From an uncultured Actinomycetes bacterium (GTDB taxonomy: Bacteria; Actinomycetota; Acidimicrobiia; Acidimicrobiales; RAAP-2), in the NCBI GenBank assembly GCA_903893745.1, contig CAITNF010000009.1, positions 1-64,000 of the forward strand: a stretch of DNA of 64,000 nucleotides, given 5' to 3'. Made by a program: the position numbers and the translations under genes. The notes under the pieces are model-generated. The model had not been told where the DNA came from. It saw nothing but the letters and a program-made list of their open reading frames with translations, and ran no database searches. Of the stretch, positions 19,917 through 27,149 are shown one piece after another; within the stretch, counting starts at the first letter, position 1, and every line of letters starts with the position of its first letter.

Positions 19917-22900
19917 TCAACGCCAATCTCTCGATAGGGTCACGTTGGCGAGGTGCAACGACTCAACGAACTCCGCAGCGAGAGCAACGCTACCTTGACC
20001 TCGCTGCAGTGAACCTCGAATAACCAGAGCGGGCGACGCGCGCGCGACCGATGACCAACGAGCCCACGCACCCTTTGAGAAAATAACGTTGACGTGACCC
20101 GTCTCGTCTTCGAGGTTGATAAACACGGCCCCATTCGCCGTTTCGGGATGCTGACGGTGCGTGACAACACCCGCCACCATCACCCGAGGACTCTCAATGC
20201 TGCCCAGGGCACTCGCCCGCGCAATACCTCGCTGATCAAGTTCATCGCGCAGTAGCGCAATGGCGGTGGCATCGGGCGTAAGACCCAGTGCCCACAGGTC
20301 GTCGGTGACCCGCTCCATTTCACTGGCCGCGGCGAGCTCGGGCGCAATGGAGCCCGTCACGATACCCGGAAGTCGGTCGGCGGTACTCTGCGCCGCGGCG
20401 CCGGCCTGCCAGGTCAGCGCCCGACGACTGACGGCGAAGCAGTCCATTGCCCCGGCCGCCGCGAGCACCTCGAGGTGCTGCTGCTGACAACCGGCGCGAC
20501 GCACGAGATCTTCGGCGTTCGACCAAGGGGCACCCGCCACAATTCGTGTGGCGAGGTCGGGACCAATGGAGCGAAGTGCGCCCAAACCAAGTCGCACGTC
20601 GGGTCGTTCGCGCGATCCCTCCAGCGTCGCACCCACCGCCGCAATATTTACGTCGGGTCGTAGTACTCGAACCCCGTGGCGTTGCGCGTCGGCGACGAGG
20701 CTCTGCGTCGACCAAAACCCGAGGGGCTGGGCGTTTAACAGTGACGCCAGAAAGGCCGCGGGATAGTGATACTTAATCCACGCCGAGCAGTAGACGAGGT
20801 GCGCGAACGATACCGAGTGCGATTCGGGGAAACCAAAATTCGCAAAAGCCGAGAGCGCGTCGAAGAGTTGGTCGGCCGATGAACCAGTGATGCCGTTTTG
20901 AGCCATACCGGCATAAAACCGACTCTTTAGTTTCATCATTCGAAGTTCGGAACGTTTCGCCGCCATGGCCTGACGTAGTTCGTCGGCCTCGGCCGGTGAA
21001 AAACCCGCAACGGCCACCGCCATCTCCATCAACTGTTCTTGAAAGAGCGGCACGCCCAAGGTGCGACGCAAGATTGGCTCAAGTCGAGGGTGGAGGTACG
21101 TGACTGGTTCGTCACCGCGACGTCGACGAATGTAGGGATTAACGGCGTTACCCTGAATGGGACCAGGACGAATCAGAGCTACTTCAATCACCAAGTCGTA
21201 AAAACAGCGCGGCTGCACTCTCGGCAGCGTCGCCATCTGCGCTCGCGATTCGACCTGAAAGACGCCCACGGTGTCCGCCTCACAGAGCAGGTCGTACACG
21301 GCATCTTCTTGCGGTAGTGATCCCAGATCAATGGTTACCCCATGAAACTCTCGGACCTGATCGACCGCTCGGTGCAACGCGTCAAGCATTCCCAGACCCA
21401 GCAGATCAAACTTGACAAGTCCAATGGCGGCACAATCATCCTTATCCCACTGCAGCACCGTGCGCCCCGGGGTGCGTCCCCATTCGACGGGACAGACCTC
21501 GAGTATTGGTCGATCACAGAGCACCATGCCCGCCGAATGAATCCCGAGGTGCCGTGGTCGATTGAGTAGTTCGGTCGCCATCGCCACAATCAGTGGTGGT
21601 GCCTCGGGACCGAGCGAGGCCATACTCTGGCGATCAACACAGTCACGCAGCGCATTCGCTTCGGTCTCGGAAAGACCAAACGCACGGGCCACGTCGCGCA
21701 ACGCCGATCGTGGTCGATACGTAATCACCGCCGCGACCTGAGCCGCGTGGCGCCGATCGTAACGTTCGTAGACGTACTGAATAACTTCTTCACGTCGCCC
21801 AGATTCAATATCTACGTCAATATCGGGCGGACCGTCACGAGCCGGTGAGAGGAACCGCTCGAAGAAGAGATTGAGCGCCACGGCGTCGGCGTTCGTAATA
21901 CCCAATGAGAAGCAGACCGCCGAGTTGGCCGCCGAACCACGGCCCTGGCAGTAGATGGTGTTCGCTCGGCAGAACTCGGTGATATCCCAGACCGTTAAGA
22001 AGTAGCCCGCAAAGCCGAGGTCCCCAATCACTTTCAGTTCGTGGTCAATCTGACGCCAGGCCCCGGTAACGCGCTCGGCGTCACGAGGCCCGTAGCGCTG
22101 GGTGGCGCCGCGCGTCACGAGCTGCTCGAGGTACGACTGCTCGTCAGTGCCGGCGGGCGTCGGGAATCTCGGTAGATTCGGTGCGACGAGGCGTAGGTCG
22201 AACGCCAGTGACGAGCCGAGCTCGCCCGCACGATCAACGACACCGGGCCAGCGAGCAAAGCGTTGGCGCTGTTCAGCGTCACTACGCAAGTGCGCCAGTG
22301 GTGACGCCGACGTCCATCCCTCCATCTCGTCCAGGGTGGCGCGAGCGCGAATCGCCGAGAGCACGGTGGCTCGCGCAAAGGCGTCGGGGGTGGCGTAGTG
22401 CACGTTGCCCGTCGCCACCACGTCAACGCCGTAGCGAACCGCCAGGTGGGCCAGGGCGTCATTACGCGCCACGTCCTCGGCCATGCCGTGGTCCCAGAGC
22501 TCGACGGCGAAATTCTCTCGCCCCACCGCGTCAACGAGTCGCTCTAATTCGCGTTGGGCGGCTCGTGGTCCCTCGGCTACGAGCGCGCGCGTCAGCGGCC
22601 CCTTACGACAGCCACTGAGTAGCAACCACTCACTCGCGTGCGCCGCGAGATCGGCGAGCGTGAATCGTGCCACACCCTTTTCTCCCCGAGCCAGGTGCCC
22701 CTCGCCCAGCATCATCGACAGGCGCCGATACCCCTCGGGCGAACGAGCCAGCACCACGAGGTGCTCACCGGCGGGGTCGCGCACTCCCACCCGGTCATCG
22801 TCACCGTGCAGGGTAATCTCGGCTCCAAATACCGTCGCGAGACCAAAGGCGCGGGCCGCCTCGGCGAAGCGCACCACCCCGTAAAGACCCTGGTGATCAG

Positions 22901-23018
22901 TGAGAGCCAGACCCGCGAGCTCGAGTCGGGCCGCCTCGGCAACCAACTCCTCTGGGTCACTCGCCCCGTCAAGAAAACTAAAACCCGAGTGCGCGTGTAG
23001 TTCAACGTACTGCGCCAT
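19917..23018 (-). CDS. dnaE2: Error-prone DNA polymerase III alpha subunit DnaE2 (ImuC)
   Basis: Translesion polymerase of the SOS mutasome, 1033 residues. The PHP domain starts at once (YVELHAHSGFSFLDGASDP) with TDHQGLYG following. The palm catalytic motif PPDIDVDIES carries two metal-binding Asp, and FDLLGLGMLDAL near 560 contains the third. The C-terminal OB domain ends with NVIFSKGAW-type segments; the tau-binding tail of replicative DnaE is absent, as in DnaE2. ATG 23018 shares one base with the imuB stop; the longer frame to 23150 lies within imuB and is rejected. Confidence 0.96.
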   Translation of the reverse strand: MAQYVELHAHSGFSFLDGASDPEELVAEAARLELAGLALTDHQGLYGVVRFAEAARAFGLATVFGAEITLHGDDDRVGVRDPAGEHLVVLARSPEGYRRLSMMLGEGHLARGEKGVARFTLADLAAHASEWLLLSGCRKGPLTRALVAEGPRAAQRELERLVDAVGRENFAVELWDHGMAEDVARNDALAHLAVRYGVDVVATGNVHYATPDAFARATVLSAIRARATLDEMEGWTSASPLAHLRSDAEQRQRFARWPGVVDRAGELGSSLAFDLRLVAPNLPRFPTPAGTDEQSYLEQLVTRGATQRYGPRDAERVTGAWRQIDHELKVIGDLGFAGYFLTVWDITEFCRANTIYCQGRGSAANSAVCFSLGITNADAVALNLFFERFLSPARDGPPDIDVDIESGRREEVIQYVYERYDRRHAAQVAAVITYRPRSALRDVARAFGLSETEANALRDCVDRQSMASLGPEAPPLIVAMATELLNRPRHLGIHSAGMVLCDRPILEVCPVEWGRTPGRTVLQWDKDDCAAIGLVKFDLLGLGMLDALHRAVDQVREFHGVTIDLGSLPQEDAVYDLLCEADTVGVFQVESRAQMATLPRVQPRCFYDLVIEVALIRPGPIQGNAVNPYIRRRRGDEPVTYLHPRLEPILRRTLGVPLFQEQLMEMAVAVAGFSPAEADELRQAMAAKRSELRMMKLKSRFYAGMAQNGITGSSADQLFDALSAFANFGFPESHSVSFAHLVYCSAWIKYHYPAAFLASLLNAQPLGFWSTQSLVADAQRHGVRVLRPDVNIAAVGATLEGSRERPDVRLGLGALRSIGPDLATRIVAGAPWSNAEDLVRRAGCQQQHLEVLAAAGAMDCFAVSRRALTWQAGAAAQSTADRLPGIVTGSIAPELAAASEMERVTDDLWALGLTPDATAIALLRDELDQRGIARASALGSIESPRVMVAGVVTHRQHPETANGAVFINLEDETGHVNVIFSKGAWARWSSVARASPALVIRGSLQRGQGSVALAAEFVESLHLANVTLSRDWR

Positions 23019-24097
23019 CAGTCGTAGATCCCCACGAGTTGCCACTTCCCCGCCTCGGCACACAACAGCACGGCCTGACCCGAATCGAGCACCACTTGTA
23101 GATGAGCTCGACGTCGCGCAAGCGCCCACCAGCGCTCCACCGTGGGCCAAGGGCCGGCGTACCAGAGCACGTCGTGTGGTGAGCGACTCGAGAACAGTAC
23201 TGACGTGGGCTCGGTGTTCAGTGAACCTCTCGCGTCAACACGCACCGACACGTCACCCTTACCGCGTACGCGCACGGCGACTGGATGCGCGAGCGTCGTC
23301 GCCGGTGAGGGCGTACCGAGTTGACCCGGCCACGGTGCCGCGTCCACTCGTCGAGCTAACGGTGAGCCCCACGGCACGAGGGTTGCGCGGTCCTGCGGTA
23401 GGCGTCCGCCACACAGGGTGGCCACCACCACCGCGTCGGGGCCCAAACGTCGTCGTACCCGGTGCGCGGCCGCCTCGGCCCGCTCGTCACCGGCTCCGCG
23501 CTGGCCAAAAAATCCAATCTGTTCATCACGCGGGGCACTCTCACCACGTAGCCGCGAGAGACGTTCGCCGAGACGCGGGTCGCGCTGGCTGGGAAGTTCT
23601 GACAGCTCGCCACGCGCGACCCGATGTAGTTGACACGCGTGACGATTGAACCGCTCGGCGACGCGAGCGGGTGCGAGGTCGGCGAATGAACCAACCGTGT
23701 GCAGTCCGAGTCGACGACCAACCGTCGCCAGGTCGCGACGACCGAGCACGTCAAGTGACTGAGCCCGTCGAAACTGATCGCTCTCACCAGGAGCGAGCAC
23801 CACATTCGCACGCGCCGCGAGTTCGCCACAGAAGAGTCCCTCCCCAATTCCGAGTGCCGGTTCGTATCCCACAACGTCACGTACCGTGGCGCGAACCGCG
23901 TCAAGTACTGCCCACTCGCCACCGAAGAAACGACTCGGCCCGCGCACGGGCAAGGCGTAGAGACCTAGTCGTACCAACTCAGTAAAGGGGCACAGTACGT
24001 AAAGTGCGTCCAGCAGCGCGAGCGAATGACGCAACGTCGCGCCGTCGGGCGACTCGCTCGCCAGCGGATCAACTCCAATAACGAGTAGTCGCTCCAT
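23018..24097 (-). CDS. imuB: ImuB: catalytically inactive Y-family polymerase homolog, strongly shortened
   Basis: Adapter that links DnaE2 to the sliding clamp in the mutasome. Only 359 residues against about 500 in typical actinobacterial ImuB. The early palm/fingers part (segment rich in ACSPxARxEG in relatives) is missing; the homologous part begins at LVRLGLYALPVRGPSRFFGG (41-60) and runs through the HhH-like region (SLDVLGRRDLATVGRRLGL, 114-132). Almost no little-finger domain follows. QIGFFG at 193-198 fits the beta-clamp-binding motif (QLPLWG in mycobacterial ImuB). The C-terminal region with LVPWGSPL is kept. It is coupled to both neighbours by 1-base overlaps. Confidence 0.85.
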   Translation of the reverse strand: MERLLVIGVDPLASESPDGATLRHSLALLDALYVLCPFTELVRLGLYALPVRGPSRFFGGEWAVLDAVRATVRDVVGYEPALGIGEGLFCGELAARANVVLAPGESDQFRRAQSLDVLGRRDLATVGRRLGLHTVGSFADLAPARVAERFNRHACQLHRVARGELSELPSQRDPRLGERLSRLRGESAPRDEQIGFFGQRGAGDERAEAAAHRVRRRLGPDAVVVATLCGGRLPQDRATLVPWGSPLARRVDAAPWPGQLGTPSPATTLAHPVAVRVRGKGDVSVRVDARGSLNTEPTSVLFSSRSPHDVLWYAGPWPTVERWWALARRRAHLQVVLDSGQAVLLCAEAGKWQLVGIYD

Positions 24098-24756
24098 TAA
24101 CGCACCGCCACTCGCCCACGTCGATTCGGCAGTAGTACAACGTGCTCACCGGCGTGCGCCACCGCGCCACGTCCACTCACGCGAACGGTGGCACTACGAC
24201 ATTCGAGTCGTGACGAAACCTCCCAGCGTGACGACGTAACGTCAAAGGAGAGGTCGGCGGGTAGCGGCCACGGCGACGTGGGTTCGCTAAGCATGATTAA
24301 TACCGCACTGCGTTCACGCACACGATCCGCTAGCCGACGCGCGACCCCGTGTGCGACTCGCGACGGTGGTCGCACGACCAGTAGATCAACACCGTCGAGC
24401 AGATCGGCGGCAGACTCGGCCCACGCACCACGAGGTCGCGGCACGAAGAGTACGCGGCGCAGATCAACTCCCAAGTCGGCAATGGCTACCACTCCCGGAT
24501 CGTCGACGCCCACCACCGCAGCCCAGTAACCCTGAGTGCTGGCTTCGCTCACGAGGCTGAGGGCCAAACTCAGTCCCCCCAATCCCGCAGCGGACTGCAC
24601 CACGACCGTCGAGCCCCGACGCAGCCCGCCAGCGGGCACCACGTCACACCAGGGCTCGGTGAGTGGCAATAGACGGCTACCCGCTAGAGCTACGGGGCGA
24701 AGGCGCGCCGCGAGTTCAGTAGGCACTGGTGGTCGTTTTGGCGAAAAAGCGAACAT
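24097..24756 (-). CDS. imuA': ImuA'-like RecA-fold mutasome accessory protein
   Basis: 219 residues if started at ATG 24756, which lies inside the LexA box; TTG 24795 is an upstream alternative. RecA-like fold with a degenerate P-loop (QSAAGLGGLSLALSL instead of GxxxxGKT), a Walker B-like hydrophobic strand VDLLVVRPPSR, and the conserved DVVPAGGLRRGSTVVV lead-in. ImuA' is required for damage-induced mutagenesis with ImuB and DnaE2. The stop overlaps the imuB ATG by one base. Low similarity to well-studied homologs is expected for this family; gene order makes the call firm. Confidence 0.85.
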   Translation of the reverse strand: MFAFSPKRPPVPTELAARLRPVALAGSRLLPLTEPWCDVVPAGGLRRGSTVVVQSAAGLGGLSLALSLVSEASTQGYWAAVVGVDDPGVVAIADLGVDLRRVLFVPRPRGAWAESAADLLDGVDLLVVRPPSRVAHGVARRLADRVRERSAVLIMLSEPTSPWPLPADLSFDVTSSRWEVSSRLECRSATVRVSGRGAVAHAGEHVVLLPNRRGRVAVR

Positions 24757-24762
24757 ACGTTC
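24751..24762. promoter_or_regulatory. LexA/SOS box (GAAC-N4-GTTC)
   Basis: GAACATACGTTC, flanked by C and G, is a full match to the Gram-positive Cheo box CGAACRNRYGTTYG. It overlaps the ATG of imuA' and lies 66 bp before the divergent SRAP gene, so one operator could control both. A TACTCT -10-like box on the minus strand (24765-24770) is directly adjacent, so bound LexA would block the imuA' transcription start. Confidence 0.88.
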
Positions 24763-24827
24763 GTAAGAGTAGTCACTCCCCGTGACGCTCGCCAACGGCT
24801 CGTACGCTCGAAGGAGAAAGGAGTCCC

Positions 24828-25535
24828 GTGTGCGGTCGCGTCACCCTCTTTAGTCCCCCCGCTCGGCTGGCCCGGCTTCTCGAAGCCGGCCTCGCTGCGG
24901 GTATTGAACCCGAAGGACACCCGAGCTGGAATATTGGACCCCAGCAACGGCTCTTCGCGGTGACGGCACCCGAGGCGACTCGAGTCCTCGACCGCTATCG
25001 GTGGGGTCTGCTGCCCAGTTGGGCGAAGGACCCCTCAATCTCGAACCGGCTCTTCAACGCGCGCGCCGAAACCGTCGCGGAGAAACCTTCCTTTCGTAGC
25101 GCCTTTGCGAAGCGACCCTGCGTAATTCCCGTGGACGGTTTCTACGAGTGGGATCACCGACCCGGACAACCCAAGCAGCCCCACTACTTCACCCGCGTGG
25201 ATGGCGAGCCCGTACTCTTCGCGGGACTTTGGGAGCGCTGGCACAACCCCGAAGACCCCGAGGATGCACCTCCCGTCCAGACCTGCACCATCATCACCAC
25301 GACACCGAGCGTAGATATAGAAGCGTTGCACGATCGCATGCCCGTCGTCCTCGAAAGTGCGGACGTGGCGCAGTGGCTCAACATCCAGCAGTACGGACCT
25401 GATGAGCGAATGCTCCTCTTACGTCCCGCGCCGAAGGGAACGCTCACTCACTACGGCGTTGGTGGGGCAGTCGGATCAATCAAGAACAACGGCGCAGAGT
25501 TGATTGCTCGAGTCGAGCCGCAGTCGCTCTTTTAG
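24828..25535 (+). CDS. SOS response-associated peptidase family protein (SRAP/YedK/HMCES)
   Basis: Forms a covalent thiazolidine link with abasic sites in single-stranded DNA. 235 residues beginning MCGR, so Cys2 becomes the reactive N-terminal residue after Met removal. Active-site motifs are SNRLFNARAET (near 70), VDGFYEW (near 105) and HDRMPVVL (near 170). The GTG is preceded by AAGGAGAAAGGAG; a TACGCT -10-like box is at 24803-24808. It is divergent from the imuA'-imuB-dnaE2 operon across a perfect LexA box, in line with its SOS association. Confidence 0.95.
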   Translation: MCGRVTLFSPPARLARLLEAGLAAGIEPEGHPSWNIGPQQRLFAVTAPEATRVLDRYRWGLLPSWAKDPSISNRLFNARAETVAEKPSFRSAFAKRPCVIPVDGFYEWDHRPGQPKQPHYFTRVDGEPVLFAGLWERWHNPEDPEDAPPVQTCTIITTTPSVDIEALHDRMPVVLESADVAQWLNIQQYGPDERMLLLRPAPKGTLTHYGVGGAVGSIKNNGAELIARVEPQSLF

Positions 25536-25540
25536 ACCCT

Positions 25541-25594
25541 AAAAAGTCGAAAACCCCGAGTGACCAGTGAGCAAGCTCCCCAGCCCCTCGGGGT
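25541..25594 (-). terminator. Intrinsic terminator of the RNA candidate
   Basis: On the minus strand ACCCCGAG (25587-25594) pairs with CTCGGGGT (25553-25560), with a smaller GAGC/GCTC hairpin in the loop, followed by TTTTCGACTTTTT. The U-rich tail is on the minus strand, so it serves the upstream minus-strand RNA rather than the SRAP gene. Confidence 0.6.
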
Positions 25595-25781
25595 CTCCGA
25601 AGGCGCGCTATCCGTTGGCCCGTGTCGGACAGGCCACCGTGTAACGGCGTGTTGTTTACGCCATTTGCCGTACGAACCGCGGACCGAACTCCGCTGCCCG
25701 GTGAGTGGCTCCGTTCCTCTTGCGAGGTCCCTTACCCCTCCGTTTTCCTCACCTCTCGGCTTGGTCAATCGTCGGCAGGTA
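25541..25781 (-). ncRNA. Candidate structured non-coding RNA (about 240 nt, unidentified)
   Basis: Read on the minus strand, this stretch folds into an ordered series of helices: GGTGAG/CTCACC (25748-25753 with 25700-25705) closing a domain that holds CCTC-GCAA-GAGG, a GNRA tetraloop hairpin (25716-25727); GCGGA-6-TCCGC (25679-25694); GGCGT-7-ACGCC (25646-25662); CCGTT..AACGG with an inner GGCC/GGCC stem (25612-25647, sharing two bases with the previous hairpin); and a 3' intrinsic terminator. A TAGTTT -10-like box (25788-25793) would start the RNA near 25781. It does not match RNase P RNA, tmRNA or SRP RNA as I know them. No convincing protein lies on either strand here. Confidence 0.5.
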
Positions 25782-25794
25782 CTGCGTAAACTAC

Positions 25795-26170
25795 GAGCAT
25801 CACTGTGCCAGAGTTCCAGCTCGCACGTGGGGCCAAAAGGGGAAATCAGAAACTTTTACCCAGAGTTGGATGGCCTTATCCACCGGTTTATTGATCACAA
25901 TCGACGTAATCAACCAGAAAACAGCATCTTTCCCACAGGAGTACCAAGTCCCCCTCGACGCAACTCGCTAACTCGCACAGCCACCGAGTCCTCCACGGCA
26001 AAGTTCGAACCCATGAGACTGCCCTGGCGGCCAGCGAGGGTACCTCTTGACAAGAGATCATCCGAAGGGCGGTACTTGAGCGCTCACGAATGAAAGACCG
26101 TGACAATCGTGGGATGGAACGCTGACACCCCAGGATGTCTAATTTGTCGAGACCTGTTTAGCCCACTCGG
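25795..26170. other. Gene-poor stretch between the RNA candidate and tRNA-Ala
   Basis: About 375 bp without a recognisable product. A 72-codon minus-strand frame (25888-26106) and a 177-codon plus-strand frame (25560-26093) have no domain or motif and look like chance openings. Near 26120-26136 a small GACATCC/GGGTGTC inverted repeat could end the tRNA transcript. The stretch may be a decayed gene or further non-coding RNA. Confidence 0.3.
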
Positions 26171-26243
26171 TGGAGGTGATGGGATTCGAACCCACTACCT
26201 CTTCATTGCGAACGAAGCGCTCTGCCAATTGAGCTACACCCCC
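26171..26243 (-). tRNA. tRNA-Ala(CGC)
   Basis: 73 nt on the minus strand with a full cloverleaf: acceptor GGGGGTG/CACCTCC, D arm GCTC/GAGC, anticodon loop TTCGCAA (anticodon CGC, reading GCG), T arm with GTTCGAAT, discriminator A. CCA is not encoded. It lies just after the SepX/GlpR-like gene on the same strand. Confidence 0.95.
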
Positions 26244-26258
26244 GAAGGAATAAATAGT

Positions 26259-27149
26259 TTAGCCCAGTGCGTATTGTGCGGTACTGTCGCGACGCCACTG
26301 CCCATTGGAGCTCGGATCGTAAAACTCCGACACGAACCCATCGCCAGCCTGCTGGTACTGCGTGGCGGGTAGTTCATTGTGGTACAAAACCATTGGCTCA
26401 TCGTCTTCGTACTCGGGCTCGAATCGCTCAGCGCGGTAACGATCGAGTGGCTCAATAGTTGCCAGACGCGAACTCCTCATCGGAATTCGAATCCCCAATG
26501 ACGTTTCTTTCAGGTAGCCCTGACTGACGGCGAGTAGTGCGAGCGCCACGTAGCCTGCTACGAGAATCCAGGTGACGACCGCCAAATCAACGAGCGGCGA
26601 AAACCCCGTGCCCAGTCCTAAGGCTGTGATGACAATCGTGGCCAGGATGAGGCGAGAGAAAATAACTCGTCGTCGCGCCGCCATTGCGCGTCGCCGTGGC
26701 TGCGTGTACGGAGCCGACACACCTTGCGAGGGAATCGCCGAATACGCGGCGACGTATCGATTCGCCGTCGCGACCGGAGCACGCTCAACCGATACCTCGT
26801 CGTAGTCGTAGTTATCATTCCAGTCATCCCACGTGGCACGACTTTCGAGTGACCGGTAGGTATCGTCGTCCTGCACTACCTGCAAGCGAGCGCGGCGATC
26901 TTCGTAGACGACTGGGGGAATCTGCGCAGCGGGGGTGGACTCTGGGTAACCAGTGGCGTAGGGGCGGTCGTACTCATCATTGGGGTCAAGTCGAAAGGCC
27001 GGCTCGACGATGTGCTCTTTCGCACTCATTCGCCGGTGTTCTTCGTGGAAGGACTCGATCGAACGTTGGGTTCCATTTTCACGCGATCGACGCACCATAA
27101 AGGGCAAGAGCAGTGCCCCCCATACGAGTGCGACTATAAGGAGAATCAC
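26259..27149 (-). CDS. SepX/GlpR-like actinobacterial divisome membrane protein
   Basis: 296 residues. A single N-terminal transmembrane segment (LLIVALVWGALLLPFMV) is followed by basic RRSRENGTQRSIESFHEEHRR, the pattern at the start of SepX/GlpR proteins (WxxYLxPMWVRR...RSVDRFS). A long acidic, Tyr/Pro-rich linker follows (about 45-150), then RRRAMAARRRVIFSRL and two more hydrophobic segments (about 163-215), then an acidic tail. SepX/GlpR proteins act at septa with FtsZ partners. The GTG start is preceded by a GGGGGA site. Assignment rests on architecture and N-terminal similarity. Confidence 0.65.
   Translation of the reverse strand: MILLIVALVWGALLLPFMVRRSRENGTQRSIESFHEEHRRMSAKEHIVEPAFRLDPNDEYDRPYATGYPESTPAAQIPPVVYEDRRARLQVVQDDDTYRSLESRATWDDWNDNYDYDEVSVERAPVATANRYVAAYSAIPSQGVSAPYTQPRRRAMAARRRVIFSRLILATIVITALGLGTGFSPLVDLAVVTWILVAGYVALALLAVSQGYLKETSLGIRIPMRSSRLATIEPLDRYRAERFEPEYEDDEPMVLYHNELPATQYQQAGDGFVSEFYDPSSNGQWRRDSTAQYALG

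Follow-up and report, generated by a model that had tools for sequence, protein, structure and literature searches.

A conserved structured RNA in a family of Acidimicrobiales, preceded by an array of DnaA-box-like sequences

A 64,000-nt stretch of DNA (the window) from an uncultured member of the Acidimicrobiales, whose family we take to consist of peat- and acid-dwelling bacteria, almost certainly contains a functional structured RNA gene. The gene, which is noncoding and about 255 nt long, occupies positions 25541-25796 of the minus strand, with its 5' end placed from a -10 box and its 3' end from a run of U residues. It is likely a single-copy, standalone gene with a promoter and a terminator hairpin of its own, and transcription would run leftward from the one to the other. 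Upstream of the gene is an array of DnaA-box-like 9-mers (25854-25937), which escaped the original prediction of the RNA, and the best explanation, which we consider probable, is that the gene encodes a new structured RNA that acts in trans and whose production tracks DnaA. A search of the open-access literature turned up no account of the RNA or, in Acidimicrobiia, of any structured RNA under DnaA control, which leaves its absence from print unproven.

Structure and boundaries of the RNA gene

The RNA is placed between the stop codon of a SRAP gene (24828-25535, plus strand; PF02586), which is 6 nt from the 3' end of the RNA, and a tRNA-Ala (CGC) gene (26169-26243), which is located upstream on the same minus strand. 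When the whole window was searched with Rfam 15, only two tRNAs reached the gathering score and three other matches of 10-15 bits fell below it; the same search of 36 loci from relatives returned tRNAs only and no family for the RNA. The original prediction held that the element is an undescribed minus-strand RNA distinct from RNase P RNA, tmRNA and SRP RNA, and none of these three matched at its position. The RNase P RNA match (RF00010) of the genome sits on another contig, ARAGORN reported no tmRNA in the window, and no SRP RNA model matched in the window. A covariance model that includes the window sequence itself (R1) matches at 25542-25799 with 266 bits, and in the whole genome it finds this one copy and a weak antisense match to the RNA's own terminator.

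The minus strand from 25536 to 25800 folds with an energy of -116.8 kcal/mol (z of -3.65; 1 of 200 shuffles as good), compared with a z of -1.29 for the plus strand over the same positions (18 of 200 shuffles as good), in agreement with the earlier claim that the fold belongs to one strand only. The consensus structure begins with a 5' domain (25655-25790, on the minus strand like all of the helices below) in which P1 (25790-25784/25661-25655) and P1a (25776-25773/25670-25667) enclose P2 (25765-25746), P3 (25740-25735/25708-25703) and P4 (25698-25675), the last of which has a GUUCGG loop. P3 is a 6-pair stem, five pairs of which are standard by eye in the window sequence, and it contains the predicted GCAA tetraloop hairpin, P3a (CCUC-GCAA-GAGG, 25727-25716). 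Next comes the P5-P6 hairpin (25603-25648), whose apex, GUCCGACAC, is near-invariant, and the structure ends with the terminal hairpin P7 and its U tail (25541-25600), which probably function as an intrinsic terminator. P2, P4 and P5-P6 account for the further hairpins that had been predicted, and the predicted terminator corresponds to the terminal hairpin at 25600-25547 with the UUUUU run behind it (25545-25541). The stem of this hairpin is interrupted, and a simple consensus scan reported no terminator at the RNA.

From 59 extracted copies, four short and two identical ones were removed to leave 53 loci. Alignment A1 was built from 50 of these, without L051, which is divergent, and without one of the tandem copies at both L055 and L056. 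Over the 73-pair structure, standard pairs fill 95.6% of the cells, compared with 87.6% in shuffled alignments, none of 500 being as high. Compensatory change in homologs, which had been proposed as a check on the RNA, exceeded that of all 500 shuffles by each of three measures, namely 39 pairs of the 73 altered in both partners (23.4 shuffled), 328 cells changed on both sides (93 shuffled) and 127 further pair types (96.6 shuffled); kinship of the sequences inflates such counts, the pair and type measures being the safer ones. Sliding the partners by 1-3 columns lowers pairing to 38-48%, and RNAalifold returns 69 pairs, 35 of them with compensated changes. By paired cells, the weakest helices are P2 (82%), P1a (88%) and P3 (89%).

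A conserved protein reading frame, which the original prediction had named as evidence against an RNA, left no sign in A1: column entropy has no clear period of three (0.66, 0.69, 0.60), 341 of the 356 gaps are 1 or 2 bases long, and the open frames differ among sequences. By eye, the P4 loop (UCGG) could form a kissing pair with the P6 loop (CCGA), but this is not claimed because L048 and L052 have an altered P4 loop and an unchanged P6 loop.

The -10-like box that had been noted upstream is the hexamer CACAGT at 25807-25802 (minus strand), which is accompanied by the TG of an extended -10 element. Among the 53 loci, the A at position 2 and the T at position 6 of this hexamer are kept in 52, the extended TG in 51 and the full CACAGT in 33; a simple consensus scan reported no sigma-70 promoter at the RNA. 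A TTGA 17 nt before the hexamer occurs in none of the 53 genus loci. Of 10 loci belonging to the family's other genera, 8 have TTGANN-17-CANNNT upstream of the RNA, as does L242, a locus from another family of the order. The hedged idea that the promoter is read by an ECF-sigma factor was not upheld, as the GGAAC -35 motif is conserved in just 2 of the 53 loci.

Tandem double copies of the RNA occur in G042, G053, G026, G188, G193, G186 and G041, among other genomes. The tandem copies of L055 and L056 are identical at 255 of 256 letters and agree also over about 150 bases upstream; in G041 (L047), the apex is altered in one of two tandem copies with the stem kept. SRAP adjoins the RNA in 24 of 30 loci (L001-L030) and is not adjacent in 6. 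Other neighbour genes are found at L008 (where a hydrolase of the HAD_2 type adjoins the RNA), L020 and L029, and in loci of other genera the RNA is surrounded by aldehyde dehydrogenase, NTP-transferase and FabH-like genes. Of 42 loci scanned, many with no more than 1.5 kb of flank, 7 carry a same-strand tRNA-Ala (CGC) gene upstream of the RNA. Within the window, frames in 19917-25535 are presumably DnaE2-, ImuB- and ImuA'-like, and for a neighbour frame we assume the label SepX/GlpR as handed on from the original prediction; Pfam gave no match for frames 26259-27149 and 24097-24795. A DNA-damage theme can be seen near the RNA, with SRAP (Pfam) in 19917-25535 of the window and LexA (Pfam) at 1828-2505 of L242.

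Distribution and the conserved 3' core

With a 311-base DNA query, relatives turned up in 54 of the 100 genomes searched; all are from one genus (54 of its 61 genomes), and none is among the 39 genomes from other families of the order. Within the genus, R1 has a match in 88 of 99 genomes, the members of A1 by construction. Only this figure is used because, of the 130 genomes among 172 that R1 matches overall, many match by the terminator hairpin alone, and that hairpin scores on both strands. Across the order, R1 matches 21 of 298 genomes, and the 10 outside the family are matches to the terminator hairpin alone. A 20-base terminator pattern was found in 74 stretches, mostly from MAGs named as Acidimicrobiaceae, Acidimicrobiales or Actinomycetes, with a few under other names.

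Sister genera and divergent members of the genus keep a 3' core consisting of the GUCCGACAC hairpin and the terminator hairpin, while the 5' domain diverges. The core sequence is the apex followed by CCCCGAG-N-GGC ... GUCACUCGGGG, with small changes, and the apex variant GCCCGACAC is present in L170 and L177. When 34 of 39 extracted 3' cores were aligned (A3), 95.0% of the cells held standard pairs (86.2% shuffled) and 62 cells were changed on both sides (21.8 shuffled); without the 5' domain the signal is weaker, with 6 and 10 of 500 shuffles reaching the pair and type measures. With strong covariation, family-wide occurrence and no Rfam entry, the RNA is ready for description as a new RNA family. 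One genome from another genus (G136) has a full genus-type RNA (L173) as well as its own diverged type (L172) on separate contigs, for which bin contamination is the simplest reading.

A model of the core (R2) matches 80 of 395 genomes of the class, of which 25 belong to the family, 5 to other families of the order and 50 to other orders. Twenty R2 loci were examined, including 15 from other orders. The GUCCGACAC apex was absent from all 15 of the latter, a CGCGAAA motif was found no more than 600 nt upstream in 13 and as a pair 20-21 bp apart in 8, and a second R2 match on the same strand was found in 6. The nine loci that were read upstream resemble separate units of several hairpins, each standing alone and ending in a terminator of the same kind. 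The candidates from other orders may be distant relatives or mere sharers of a terminator style, and membership is not claimed for them. L242 is closer, with a GTGGATTA array, a TTGACT-17-CATGCT promoter and an adjoining LexA gene.

Six loci from other orders (L236, L238, L244, L249, L250 and L251) contain units of several hairpins arranged in tandem, in which GNRA and UUCG hairpins abound, each unit having a CCCCGAGAGGG...CUCCCUCGGGG hairpin and CGCGAAA upstream, and these could perhaps represent a class-wide RNA family. A phylum-wide spread was considered and rejected. Of 18 genomes that R2 matched, 7 are outside the class, their matches being weak, and none of the six of these seven matches that were read has the apex; four resemble ordinary terminators or coding DNA, and L257 and L260 are short hairpins behind promoter-like sequence. 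In the latter two, a GCCCCGAGAGGCAGAGGGAC...GUUUCUCGGGGC hairpin comes immediately after the promoter-like sequence and may mark a very short transcript.

The upstream array of DnaA-box-like sequences

The array consists of three 9-mers that resemble the DnaA box, TTTCCCACA (25929-25937) at about -137, TTATCCACC (25876-25884) at about -84 and TTTTACCCA (25854-25862) at about -63, each identified by sequence match on the plus strand. With a threshold of at most one mismatch to TTWTNCACA, the 53 upstream regions of 160 nt hold 156 boxes, compared with 17.3 +/- 3.7 in dinucleotide shuffles; the regions include related and tandem loci, and the box counts are not independent because the loci are related. 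At least two boxes are present in 51 of the 53 loci, and 32 boxes, in 31 loci, are exact. When regions of 200 nt are taken, 148 of 159 boxes have the same orientation. The spacings are mostly 21-22, 52-54 and 74-75 bp, which is near 2, 5 and 7 helical turns.

Flanks of the array loci hold 19 boxes in 62.9 kb. The 330 nt after dnaA in 24 members of the genus, taken as oriC, hold 61 boxes in 7.9 kb, 4 of them exact, and the first 260 nt likewise hold 61, compared with 13.6 in shuffles; the array is therefore richer in DnaA-box-like words than this stretch. In the window, the array is the only spot with three same-strand boxes within 100 bp, none of which is exact. A two-box pattern occurs in 8 of 41 genomes, once in each and always in front of the RNA, and the reversed control gave 0. 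A second set of 13 loci, made up of L242, two divergent members of the genus (L167 and L174) and 10 loci from the family's other genera, has 17 boxes, all in one orientation (2.6 +/- 1.9 in shuffles), and 3 double boxes (0.07 in shuffles); three of the 10 loci from other genera (L171, L172 and L176) have no box at the threshold. Upstream of the RNA in L176, where no 9-mer reaches the threshold, about nine units can be made out by eye, arranged head to tail, each of roughly 11 bp and with TGGGGA as its core.

The sequence pattern suggests that DnaA probably binds the array. Alternatively, and this is a real though lesser possibility, the array could be bound by another regulator whose site resembles the DnaA box, and the RNA would then be an ordinary regulated small RNA with no replication link. 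Such a regulator would fit the consistent departure, by one base, of two of the three conserved boxes from the consensus, the -84 box because its commonest form ends in C and the -63 box because it has C for A at position 7, as well as the CGCGAAA motifs that are in a similar place, often paired, in other orders. The degenerate DnaA-box word, however, is also enriched after dnaA in the same genus. In addition, most of the variation in the -137 box, which reads TTTTSCACA in many relatives and is an exact TTWTNCACA in many loci, falls at the degenerate consensus positions 3 and 5. Double boxes are also frequent: 35 of them, spaced by 11 or 12 bp, occur in 31 of the 53 loci compared with 0.5 in shuffles, and this distance from start to start corresponds to the pairs 2 or 3 bp apart that E. 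coli DnaA is described as favouring (PMC11317965).

Comparison among loci establishes the helices, their conservation, the conserved -10 region and the upstream enrichment in DnaA-box-like words, and from these a mechanism can be proposed. DnaA would bind the phased array at about -137, -84 and -63, and a DnaA-responsive promoter would make a stable, structured, trans-acting RNA. If DnaA does bind the array, RNA output would track the level of active DnaA and hence the replication cycle. Less certain are the roles of the parts of the RNA: the fast-changing 5' domain may be a scaffold, and the GUCCGACAC apex and the terminal hairpin may bind a common partner, whether protein or RNA. That the RNA acts through the P6 apex is somewhat less likely than not. 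Pairing of this apex with dnaA was considered and set aside, since 11 near matches over 24 dnaA loci included 1 exact match and no recurrent place.

A fuller model, rather unlikely as a whole, is that of a replication-cycle RNA in which DnaA on the helically phased array directly sets synthesis and a conserved target is informed of the initiation state by way of the GUCCGACAC apex. The array and the RNA would together form a datA-like control locus that works through RNA, with class-wide counterparts in which the array is exchanged for paired CGCGAAA boxes. Binding of DnaA to the array would open replication control to study in a little-studied class of actinobacteria and would provide an example of an initiator that controls a structured RNA.

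Comparison with known RNAs and loci

It is conceivable, if improbable, that the RNA is the RNA-polymerase-binding RNA of the class, a counterpart of 6S or Ms1 with a sequence that has drifted past recognition. Like these RNAs, it appears to be an abundant-type standalone structured RNA gene in the 200-300 nt range with its own, in this case predicted, promoter, and it is similar to Ms1 in size and occurs as a single gene. Ms1 is about 300 nt in length, and its homologs are described as likewise hard to find by sequence (PMC9130861). No match to the 6S model (RF00013) was found in the genome, a test that is weak for this phylum because the control, positive in 5 of 14 genomes, missed 6S in its actinobacterium. 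The consensus fold is branched, unlike the single long hairpin with a central bubble, and a 6S identity was rejected on the basis of this fold and the negative search. The gene order reported for Ms1, which involves a HAD-IB hydrolase, CpaE and an oxidoreductase (PMC9130861), also speaks against the possibility, as a HAD-IB hydrolase with CpaE or an oxidoreductase was absent from the 20 neighbour proteins scanned at nine loci and the window; the hydrolase beside the RNA at L008 is of the HAD_2 type. The RNA is one candidate for the 6S/Ms1 function missing from these bacteria, and as such it is directly testable.

It is quite improbable that the DNA is the functional part, serving as a datA-like locus that titrates or inactivates DnaA, with the RNA as a by-product or as a device for transcribing next to the locus. 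By sequence, the array is a DnaA-box cluster outside oriC, its boxes mostly one mismatch off, and it is downstream of a tRNA gene, as E. coli datA is reported to be downstream of the tRNA-Gly operon (PMC10950094). It is the sole cluster of its kind in the window, and in three genomes of the family that have both on one contig, it is separated from dnaA by 481 kb (G196, 2.0 Mb), 355 kb (G128, 2.0 Mb) and 376 kb (G040, 1.7 Mb), the RNAs of the latter two being weak R1 matches (36 and 44 bits) with the apex present; in the RNA's own genome, dnaA is on a different contig. The RNA itself, however, is under strong structural selection, the tRNA is found nearby in only a minority of the loci scanned, many with short flanks, and, unlike E. 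coli datA, the array has three boxes in one orientation in front of a conserved structured RNA. The resemblance to datA is one of analogy and not of membership. It is highly improbable that the RNA serves the tRNA-Ala or SRAP transcript merely as a long terminator or as a 3' trailer. From its position it could stop both transcripts, but it is kept without adjacent SRAP and without a nearby tRNA and has its own conserved promoter, a covarying 5' domain and whole-unit duplications.

Two further kinds of regulatory RNA bear comparison with the RNA. CsrB and RsmZ similarly have several hairpins with purine-rich linkers between them, but a CsrB-type identity was not supported: the loops of the RNA are GNRA, GUUCGG and CCGAC and not GGA, and CsrA (PF02599) is absent from its genome (G000, 96.4% complete), where the control found PF02599 in 3 of 14 genomes. 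EcpR1, CcnA and the B. subtilis dnaA antisense RNA share with it a suspected tie to the replication cycle and are described as acting on cell-cycle mRNAs. The RNA described here, for which no recurring target site in dnaA was seen, differs in that its suspected tie to replication is the DnaA-like array in front of the gene.
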